Shown here: one piece after another, positions 62,652-64,000 of the stretch
Layout: each line of letters begins with the position of its first letter
Numbering within the stretch: the first letter of the stretch is position 1
Assembly (NCBI RefSeq): GCF_004799645.1
Contig: NZ_CP031305.1
Coordinates: forward strand, 1,116,001 to 1,180,000
DNA: 64,000 nt
Reading direction: 5' to 3'
Source: Natronorubrum bangense
GTDB taxonomy: Archaea > Halobacteriota > Halobacteria > Halobacteriales > Natrialbaceae
The notes under the pieces: model-generated
Told to the model about the DNA's origin: nothing
The model's database searches: none
Seen by the model: only the letters and a program-made list of their open reading frames with translations
Position numbers and translations under genes: made by a program

Positions 62652-63308
62652 TCATAATTCCGGCGCTGTCCCACTCTTTTCGAGATAGACCATCGGCGTC
62701 TTCGCAACGAGAAACGACTCGTCTTCGGCCGCATCGACGGCGTCCCAGTAATCCCGCGGCTCGGTGTCACAGCACTCTCGGATGTCCGCACTCGAGAGGA
62801 CGTTCTCGCCGGCAAGGACGAGGTCGAACGCCTCGCGTCGCCGGCCCTCAAGCCACTGATCGAACCGGGCCGGACACTCTGGGTCGGGGTAGTTGATGAC
62901 GAGATAGCCACCGTCTGCGACGTGTGCATAGAGGTCAGCGACGGCCGCGGCGGTGTCGGGGACGAAAAACAGCGTCGCCGCAGAGTAGACCAGGTCGAAG
63001 CGCTCGTCGGTCTCGAGCGCGGGGAGTGCGTCGACGGCGAAGGTGAGGTTCTCGAGGCCGCGTTCGGCCGCGCGCTCGCGGTTGTCGGCGACGACCTGCT
63101 CGGAGATATCGATCCCGTGAAACTCGGTGTCGGGATAGCGACTCGCGAGGGCAAAAAGGACGCCGCCGGGGCCACAGCCGACCGACGCGACGCGCTCGAA
63201 CGGGCCAAAGCGCTCGAGAAAGCGCTCGAGGTAGTCGACCATCGCCTCGCCCCGGAGGTAGATACAGCGGTCGTAGTCGGCGTTTCGGTAGAACTCGTCC
63301 CAGTCCAT
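62652..63308 (-). CDS. class I SAM-dependent methyltransferase
   Basis: The 218-residue protein starts MDWDEFYRNADYDRCIYLRG and has motif I RVASVGCGPGGVLFALA (40-56), a ribose-binding TEFHGIDISEQVV and the strand DLVYSAATLFFVP. It matches the Methyltransf_11/25 type, usually acting on small molecules. No substrate can be inferred. The stop is about 50 bases from the end of the G10 enzyme and convergent with it. Confidence 0.85.
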   Translation of the reverse strand: MDWDEFYRNADYDRCIYLRGEAMVDYLERFLERFGPFERVASVGCGPGGVLFALASRYPDTEFHGIDISEQVVADNRERAAERGLENLTFAVDALPALETDERFDLVYSAATLFFVPDTAAAVADLYAHVADGGYLVINYPDPECPARFDQWLEGRRREAFDLVLAGENVLSSADIRECCDTEPRDYWDAVDAAEDESFLVAKTPMVYLEKSGTAPEL

Positions 63309-63403
63309 GTCGTCTCGTCTCACTGGACACGAACTTAACAGGTTCGAGTGCCGTGTCCACACGGACCGCAACGTTTTTCTGCCGACCACAAGTCCCTCGA
63401 ACT

Positions 63404-63490
63404 ATGGCACCCGAATCCCGCGTCAGTGCCGGTATCGACGACCAGTCAGACCGTCCACAGTCGGGATTCGGTTTCTTCTTTGCCCGGTAA
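63404..63490 (+). CDS. 28-residue Phe-rich leader peptide before pheS
   Basis: The frame starts MAPESRVSAG and ends SGFGFFFAR: four of the last seven residues are Phe (codons at 63467, 63473, 63476 and 63479), though Phe is absent from the first 21. A T-rich box (63374-63378) is about 28 bases before the ATG, as in a leaderless transcript. The stop TAA (63488-63490) sits in the loop of a perfect hairpin. pheS starts 137 bases after it. The design recalls the bacterial pheM leader, where slow decoding of Phe codons senses charged tRNA-Phe. Confidence 0.6.
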   Translation: MAPESRVSAGIDDQSDRPQSGFGFFFAR

Positions 63491-63584
63491 TCCGGGCCGG
63501 TGGAGCCGCGCTCGCCCACGCCGGGCGGGCGCGTCGAAACCGACCGCGCCGTCGACAGCGCTCGAGTTCAGACTCGAGCCGAGT
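63482..63584 (+). promoter_or_regulatory. candidate attenuator: hairpins between the leader peptide and pheS
   Basis: Hairpin 1 is GCCCGG-TAAT-CCGGGC (63482-63497), which includes the leader stop in its loop and begins just after the last Phe codon. CGCCC/GGGCG (63513-63527) forms a second. GCTCGAGT-TCAG-ACTCGAGC (63560-63579) is a perfect third. The last arm of it can instead pair as ACTCG-AGC-CGAGT (63572-63584), so two states exclude each other. No T-run follows, so the mechanism is not the bacterial terminator type. Confidence 0.5.
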
Positions 63585-63627
63585 CGGAACCGCTAACTGA
63601 CACCCACGCAGCCATACGAACAAGCGA

Positions 63628-64000
63628 ATGCAACTTCCAGCACAACAGGTTGCGGTCTTAGAGGCCGCAACCGCGGACGATGCAACGTCCGTCGACGCCC
63701 TCGCCGCGGCGACCGACCTGCCACCGGAGACCGTCACCGGAGCAGTGTTCGAACTCGAGGCCGAGGAACTGGTCGCCGTCACCGAACGCGTCGACGAAAC
63801 CGTCTCACTCACCGACGAAGGGCGGGAGTACGCCACCGATGAACTCCCCGAAGTCCGGCTCTACGAGGCCGCACTCGAGGCCGGGGCTGGCGACGAGCCG
63901 GTCCAGATGGGCCGCGTGATCGGGACCTCGGGACTCGAGGGGCCACAGGTCGATATCGCGCTCTCGAACTACGCGCGCAAGGGCTACGGCAGCATCGACA
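63628..64000 (+). CDS. pheS: phenylalanyl-tRNA synthetase alpha subunit (3'-truncated)
   Basis: The visible 124 residues begin MQLPAQQVAVLEAATADD and contain the N-terminal winged-helix region of archaeal PheRS alpha (VTGAVFELEAEELVAVTERV, LTDEGREYATDELPEVRLYEAAL). The catalytic aminoacylation domain lies beyond the window. It charges tRNA-Phe, with PheT as partner. The 137-base leader before it is long for a haloarchaeal gene. Confidence 0.85.
   Translation, partial: MQLPAQQVAVLEAATADDATSVDALAAATDLPPETVTGAVFELEAEELVAVTERVDETVSLTDEGREYATDELPEVRLYEAALEAGAGDEPVQMGRVIGTSGLEGPQVDIALSNYARKGYGSID

Follow-up and report, generated by a model that had tools for sequence, protein, structure and literature searches.

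A conserved Phe-codon leader with two covarying RNA structures upstream of haloarchaeal pheS suggests attenuator-like control

In haloarchaea pheS is mostly preceded by a short open reading frame that ends in a cluster of phenylalanine codons. Judged by sequence comparison, this leader, its Phe cluster and two associated RNA structures are conserved and real. The best explanation, which we consider likely, is an attenuator-like, Phe-tRNA-responsive control by a leader peptide that operates through ribosome stalling. In broader terms it seems fairly probable that Archaea possess their own leader-peptide control of aminoacyl-tRNA synthetases by cognate codons. In haloarchaea this would apply to at least two genes, pheS and trpS2, each behind a mini-ORF that is predicted to be leaderless and to pair its start codons with its sensing region, and the pheS version would work without a U-tract terminator via a hairpin unlike any Rfam family.

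The window analysed is a stretch of 64,000 nt of Natronorubrum bangense DNA. The leader ORF lies at 63404..63490 on the + strand with the start ATG at 63404 and the stop TAA at 63488-63490, and encodes the peptide MAPESRVSAGIDDQSDRPQSGFGFFFAR (ending in GFGFFFAR). Inspection of the window sequence thus bore out the first-pass annotation, which had described a 28-codon ORF with a Phe-rich C-terminus at this place. The ATG of pheS is found at 63628, i.e. 137 nt past the leader stop, in agreement with the gap of 137 bases reported before. pheS occupies 63628..64000 (+) and continues past the window end, followed by pheT. The pheS product of this genome (L002) has 508 aa and matched NF003210 with 604 bits in a family search; the pheT product, encoded downstream of it, has 571 aa (TIGR00471, 446 bits). 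Among the named loci the best PheS match was that of N. thiooxidans with 97%. The upstream neighbour is a divergent, methyltransferase-like gene on the minus strand (62652-63308), whose family matches remained under their cut-offs. A programmed frameshift into pheS was discarded, as the ORF list of the window has no other frame that is open at the leader and reaches pheS.

Two side observations concern the genomic surroundings. In G012, G020, G035 and G041 pheS is preceded on its own strand by a trpS1 match, the end of which is no more than about 320 nt away; in the window's genome trpS1 is located elsewhere (G000:C1:1269351). Furthermore, three matches of one pattern recurred in inverse order and with identical spacing at G000:C1:86549-230342 and G000:C2:127544-271337. 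Because of the identical spacing about 144 kb look duplicated between the two contigs; with a contamination estimate of 12.7% for this genome, the repeat may represent a near strain or an assembly duplicate.

Conservation of the leader was assessed in 233 haloarchaeal pheS upstream regions, composed of 30 best matches, 80 others, 80 named GTDB loci and 43 at one genome per genus. Some species were included twice; removal of duplicates left 211 distinct regions, and 209 after two with too little upstream DNA were set aside. A strict rule demanded an ATG start, a length of 18-60 aa and at least three Phe among the last 12 residues. It was satisfied by 166 of the 209 distinct regions, compared with 1/209 on the reverse strand, 0/1045 mononucleotide shuffles and 3/435 windows of 430 nt from other loci. 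The individual samples passed at 29/30, 67/79 and 65/80 loci, and at 25/42 in the sample of 42 genera represented by a single genome each; in the latter sample the pheS start was confidently placed at 36 loci, 25 of which passed. Thus a short ORF with terminal Phe codons, the conservation of which had been proposed as a check, is retained at most haloarchaeal pheS loci sampled, and the concern that the ORF or its Phe cluster would be absent from relatives was for the most part not substantiated. Failures amounted to 43 of the 209 distinct loci (17/42 in the one-per-genus sample). They comprised variants, e.g. a GTG start in L031, GSGLFFPRH in L091 and GPFFSA in L314, and other loci where no leader was visible by eye, e.g. 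L092, L098, L100, L121, L306 and L330. In Halomicrobium katesii (L082) the last 330 nt before pheS contain a Phe-containing remnant without a stop codon in which the motifs GGCGGA and CGAAACC persist; this seems to be a decayed copy of the leader. In 20 regions sampled from the non-haloarchaeal classes of the phylum no Phe-cluster ORF was detected near pheS: 19 were devoid of any ORF with three Phe in the last 12 residues, and one held two such ORFs far upstream of pheS.

Leader peptides ranged from 24 to 48 aa. Their termini were conserved, with M-A-x-E-(S/P) at the start and GFGFFFA at the end, and their middle was variable in sequence. The GFGFFF codons at 63464..63481 (+), the predicted stall site, were present in exact form in 74 of 145 distinct leaders. 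Within the genus a DNA signature of the leader N-terminus matched in 8 of 10 genomes; eight of the nine matches were the pheS leader and the ninth was an unrelated frame, which ties the ORF to pheS and speaks against a free-standing protein not linked to it. The pattern TTYGGNTTYTTYTTY alone proved a poor marker and was abandoned, for it matched in 287 of 391 genomes and at many unrelated places.

Translation of the leader was judged by a frame test that ignores the ORF and measures the spacing of the two DNA blocks that correspond to segments 1 and 2 of the stem described below. The block pair was found at 140 of the 211 distinct regions, 132 of which had a single pair. At 131 of these 132 loci the spacing was 2 modulo 3, i.e. 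in frame, over spans of 44-113 nt. Because the spacing of the conserved blocks keeps the frame, we count the leader ORF as translated and regard this as almost certain. In all 74 exact GFGFFF leaders the first Phe codon, which is paired in the stem, was TTC, while the next three, unpaired Phe codons were TTT in 10, 15 and 5 of the 74. The fixed paired codon next to variable unpaired ones suggests a constraint on the amino acid as well as on the pairing of the RNA.

Within the ORF a stem is formed by segment 1 (codons 3-6, 5' arm, CCGAATCCCG, 63411..63420, +) and segment 2 (the Ser-Gly-Phe-Gly codons, 3' arm, CGGGATTCGG, 63462..63471, +), which pair over 10 bp without mismatch in the window. 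Both segments could be placed in 144 leaders; the chief 1:2 combinations in these were GAATCC:GGATTC (60), GAACCC:GGGTTC (45) and GGACCC:GGGTCC (7). The wobble combination GAATCC:GGGTTC occurred in 11 of the 144, the C-A combination GAACCC:GGATTC in none; some rare combinations were not fully paired, e.g. GAACCC:GGTTTC in 2 of 144. Tolerance of U-G together with the absence of C-A points to a structure of RNA and not to a DNA palindrome. Covariation was tested with 102 thinned rows out of 145 and 1000 shuffles. Against shuffles that ignore kinship, 88.4% of the cells were paired versus 82.5% (maximum 84.3%), and 71 cells were doubly changed, where the shuffles averaged 18.7 and did not exceed 47. 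The tenth pair (63420-63462) was retained in only 33 of the 102 rows. A segment 3 complementary to segment 2 with covariation, and hence a covarying 2:3 pairing, was not found in these leaders. The conserved CGAAACC was considered as a partner of segment 2 in a 2:3 antiterminator and rejected by eye; covariation is missing there because GGC predominates as the second Gly codon (in 49 of 74 GFGFFF leaders) and GAAACC is nearly fixed.

The second structure, the P1-P2 element, covers 63491..63552 (+) and comes directly after the stop codon of the leader. A covariance model matched it with an E of 1.1e-7 (G000:C1:1179491-1179552), the sequence being among the model's own input. P1, which is weak in the window owing to a mismatch at its fourth pair, pairs 63495-63500 with 63540-63545, P2 pairs 63507-63517 with 63523-63533, and a purine-rich internal loop is made up of 63501-63505 (TGGAG) and 63535-63539 (CGAAA), all on the + strand. 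In general P1 is variable and covarying, the internal loop (5' YGGA, 3' CGAAA) is almost invariant and P2 comprises about 30 nt. A P2 length filter of 27-33 nt left 115 rows, removal of near-identical ones 103 and thinning at 80% identity 62. The test was run on 54 of the 62 with L015, L052, L101, L109, L130, L139, L169 and L186 omitted, some as gappy-looking. In these hand-selected rows 80.6% of the cells were paired compared with 60.9% after shuffling; the former percentage may be inflated by this selection. Double changes were seen in 18 of 19 pairs. The covariation score was 0.509 as opposed to 0.190 for shuffled rows; none of 500 shuffles reached 0.509, and slid controls gave 0.084-0.148. 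The outermost modelled P1 pair was unpaired in 35 of the 54 rows. With filters that lose weak matches the model detected the element in at least 80 of 145 class genomes at E <= 0.1, usually once per genome. Of the best 20 matches 19 were just upstream of pheS and one had no listed pheS position; second matches in five genomes had an E of 0.0046 or weaker. Rfam (4227 models) yielded no match at gathering score in the whole window; in 63340-63640 the best weak match was RF02828 with 18.8 bits where 88 are needed, and at E up to 5 no Phe leader family was among the matches. A kink-turn is characterized by a three-nucleotide bulge plus GA; by eye the YGGA/CGAAA loop has no such bulge plus GA and this assignment was dropped. 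The stem inside the ORF (63411-63420/63462-63471) and the P1-P2 element (63491-63552), both conserved, had been overlooked in the first-pass annotation.

An almost invariant YGGA/CGAAA loop within varying stems is what one expects of a protein-recognised motif. The P1-P2 hairpin might thus bind PheRS itself and mediate autoregulation with the leader peptide being secondary, similar to ThrRS of E. coli, which autoregulates on its own mRNA. Model matches that are nearly all single per genome, the best of them at pheS, fit this proposal, and CGAAAC includes GAA, the tRNA-Phe anticodon. Yet autoregulation leaves the in-frame Phe codons, the conservation of the frame and the 1:2 stem unexplained. 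Moreover, no more than a few nt separate the 5' arm of P1 from the leader stop, suggesting dependence on translation. We consider it unlikely.

The hairpins that had been named earlier are of a different kind. The stop codon does lie in the loop of a perfect 6-bp hairpin right after the last Phe codon, as claimed: GCCCGG-TAAT-CCGGGC at 63482..63497 (+), with arms at 63482-63487 and 63492-63497. By eye this hairpin accompanies leaders that end with Ala-Arg-stop, not those with Ala-Ala-stop or Ala-stop, and by this comparison it is lineage-specific. Likewise the hairpins at 63560-63579 (GCTCGAG/CTCGAGC) and 63572-63584 (ACTCG/CGAGT) both exist and overlap; a counterpart of 63560-63584 was not seen by eye in relatives. 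Compensatory changes, which had been put forward as supporting evidence, were encountered in the 1:2 stem and in P1-P2, but the hairpins originally named differ from the conserved ones.

A promoter-like box, CGCAACGTTTTT, consisting of a BRE-like CGCAAC and a T-rich TATA, is located at 63367..63378 (+) and precedes the leader ATG by 26-37 nt. Among 125 thinned loci the box CGNAAC-G-TTTT was position-fixed at this distance with conservation of C(-37) in 91%, of A(-34) and A(-33) in 93% and of T(-29..-26) in 94-100%. Promoter spacing in haloarchaea is the basis for expecting a leaderless mRNA from the distance between box and ATG; from 26-37 nt we infer a leaderless leader mRNA. Another promoter-like box, CGGAACCGCTAACT, is found in the window at 63585..63598 (+) close to pheS, with CGGAACCGCTAACTGAC and variants across loci and CGAAACTGCTAAC in H. 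prahovense (L111). A regular expression detected it at 114/145 leader-positive and 16/25 leader-negative loci; three more negatives were recognized by eye. Because the proximal box is also present without a leader, the leader transcript may be dispensable for pheS, and to judge by this box pheS probably has its own promoter.

For H. volcanii pheS (HVO_2948) Table 2 of Babski et al. 2016 (PMC4983044) reports an upstream uORF of 26 aa (mass 2772, pI 5.9) with a mapped start, and the passages concerned give no additional start site at pheS itself. The leader of Haloferax prahovense also has 26 aa with a pI of 5.94 and a mass of 2850, H. volcanii being compared by its listed values only (2772, 5.9). 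Given the proximal promoter-like box, transcription of pheS may also start after 63490, which had been named as a refutation, but the H. volcanii map lacks a start at pheS. The same data bear on the proposal that the leader is a separate small gene, that a proximal promoter of its own drives pheS and that any effect of the leader comes about by transcriptional interference. The box CGGAACCGCTAAC before pheS with or without a leader and the position-fixed promoter-like box of the leader itself agree with it, and uORFs as separate small genes are allowed for in general by Babski et al. 2016 (PMC4983044). On the other hand, the passages on H. volcanii assign to pheS an upstream start and none at pheS (PMC4983044), and each cluster, Phe at pheS and Trp at trpS2, is cognate to the gene that follows it. 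A separate gene is thus improbable in our view. That the leader encodes a small protein with its own function, next to pheS by chance, would fit the conserved termini M-A-x-E-(S/P) and GFGFFFA, but is highly improbable given that the codons at the two ends show covariation as RNA, that the middle and the length (24-48 aa) vary and that the genus N-terminal signature marks the pheS leader in 8/9 matches.

For Phe-tRNA-responsive control by the leader peptide, the reading which we favor, the following course is conceivable. Translation of the leader ORF would sense charged tRNA-Phe. When Phe-tRNA is scarce, the ribosome would stall on the GFGFFF codons and hold the 1:2 stem open, leaving P1-P2 free to fold. 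This would be the ON state, in which the leader transcript continues into pheST on top of the output of the proximal pheS promoter, and pheST expression would likely be raised. When Phe-tRNA is plentiful, the ribosome would reach the stop codon and keep P1 open while 1:2 re-forms, presumably the OFF state. The folding of ribosome states was computed for 68 thinned leaders with an assumed footprint that starts 17 nt 5' and ends 13 nt 3' of the first base of the A-site codon. Under this assumption P(1:2) was 0.72 and P(P1) 0.51 in the free RNA. With the ribosome placed on residue two or four of the Phe cluster P(1:2) was 0.00 and P(P1) 0.50 or 0.41, and with the ribosome at the stop codon P(1:2) was 0.62 and P(P1) 0.02. 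P(P1) was barely different between free and stalled RNA; thus it is the stop-codon state that argues for P1-P2 being the ON fold.

Between the leader stop and pheS none of the 145 distinct regions had a T run of more than 3, which renders a classical U-tract terminator unlikely. Candidate output steps are termination of the transcript, RNA decay or translation of pheS; we see the chances of an output at the transcript level as evenly balanced. That the leader responds to Phe-tRNA is very likely in our view. Taken together, the original idea of a possible attenuation gains from the conserved Phe codons, the link to pheS and the covarying RNA, but the conserved hairpins are other than those named for it, a U-tract is missing and a second promoter-like box is present.

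A parallel case is found at trpS2, the second TrpRS gene. For HVO_A0127, a tryptophan--tRNA ligase of H. volcanii, a 23-aa uORF (mass 2743, pI 5.4) with a mapped start is given in the passages of Babski et al. 2016 (PMC4983044). Leaders such as MQSAPTRWRWRTSGADSLAFAA were located upstream of trpS2 at 19 of 21 loci read, L267 having a single Trp. The trpS2 leaders of Haloferax larsenii and H. mediterranei both have 23 aa (MVSTSRATCWRWRSTWEVDSIAV, mass 2728, pI 8.0; MVSTSHANCWRWHAFREVDSIAV, mass 2703, pI 6.7); by the listed values they equal the H. volcanii uORF in length and are near in mass, but differ in pI. Here too the start codons pair with later codons around the Trp codons, GTCCGCT...AGCGGAC, and GTCCACT...AGTGGAC in Haloferax. 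The variable pairs beside the core showed 22 doubly changed cells versus 4.7 in shuffles (0/1000). This permutation used 32 rows from 28 of 42 loci, four rows being nested duplicates, and required the pattern plus in-frame Trp; nine pattern loci without TrpS2 downstream were omitted since unrelated inverted repeats would contaminate the test. In L262 and L334 the Trp codons are kept and the second arm is read in another frame (...GERTVS, not ...ADS), which speaks for RNA. Pattern searches detected the stem in 29 of 194 genomes and not in the window's own genome. Of 30 pattern loci taken, 21 had a TrpRS downstream, one of which was distant from trpS2 (L338, 32% identity); the remaining nine had none, several of them being one repeated inverted repeat.

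Some further features were noted at these loci. Trp-rich (WRW) leaders were seen upstream of trpS2 in L261-L280, L288 and L335-L361, and at L384:322-393 and L385:320-391, and by eye a pyrimidine-rich stretch follows the stop of the trpS2 leader. An inverted-repeat element, GTCCGCTTGYTGA...CAAGCGGACAGT, was present in G034, G085, G130, G166 and G046 with six copies in G034 and had no TrpS2 downstream where tested; it looks like a mobile-element end or hairpin.

The trpS2 leader thus appears to follow the same logic as the pheS leader with the cognate amino acid swapped. Both are uORFs with cognate codons and start codons that pair with later codons, supported by covariation. They differ in that the loop which separates segments 1 and 2 holds the Trp codons, as in the classical trp logic. 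The uORFs of Babski et al. 2016 (PMC4983044) correspond to our leaders as far as the 26-aa uORF at pheS and the 23-aa uORF at tryptophan--tRNA ligase with their mapped starts are concerned, but the Phe or Trp codons, RNA structure and attenuation are unmentioned in those passages; the main text had no matches for "attenuat" and "leader peptide". In searches limited to open full-text papers, archaeal leader-peptide attenuation was not among the matches listed. If the favored reading is true, a second domain also couples translation to gene output by means of a sensing mini-ORF, and an element without a canonical terminator would expose an unknown archaeal output step. A direct test would be possible in Haloferax volcanii, where the start sites are already mapped.

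Control by leader peptides that depends on the position of the ribosome is a textbook bacterial mechanism. T-box RNAs sense tRNA by a specifier loop and by the T-box sequence, which pairs with the acceptor end of the tRNA. A T-box was rejected for the haloarchaeal leader: Rfam gave no T-box match and the conserved box varies between GGUGGA and GGCGGA, so that UGGN is not kept. Bacterial attenuators of the pheM/pheST type combine a short leader ORF that is translated and carries a cluster of codons for the amino acid handled by the downstream enzyme, an intrinsic terminator (GC hairpin and U run) between leader and gene, and mutually exclusive 2:3 and 3:4 structures switched by ribosome position; expression goes up when the amino acid or the charged tRNA is scarce. 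In this manner E. coli pheST is controlled by an attenuator with the pheM leader peptide. The haloarchaeal leader has the ORF with a cognate codon cluster, translation being deduced from the conserved frame. As to exclusive structures, 1:2 and P1-P2 are supported and shift in the state folding, and a covarying 2:3 pairing was not found. The leader is not filed in the bacterial attenuator family because the intrinsic terminator was tested for and is absent (T run <=3, 145/145). Compared with E. coli pheM/pheST the start of the ORF pairs with Gly-Phe codons, the leader mRNA is predicted to be leaderless, a P1-P2 hairpin is found with no U-run terminator (145/145), and a second promoter-like box precedes pheS. 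What both have in common is a short ORF immediately before pheST in which Phe codons are clustered, and RNA hairpins around and after it.
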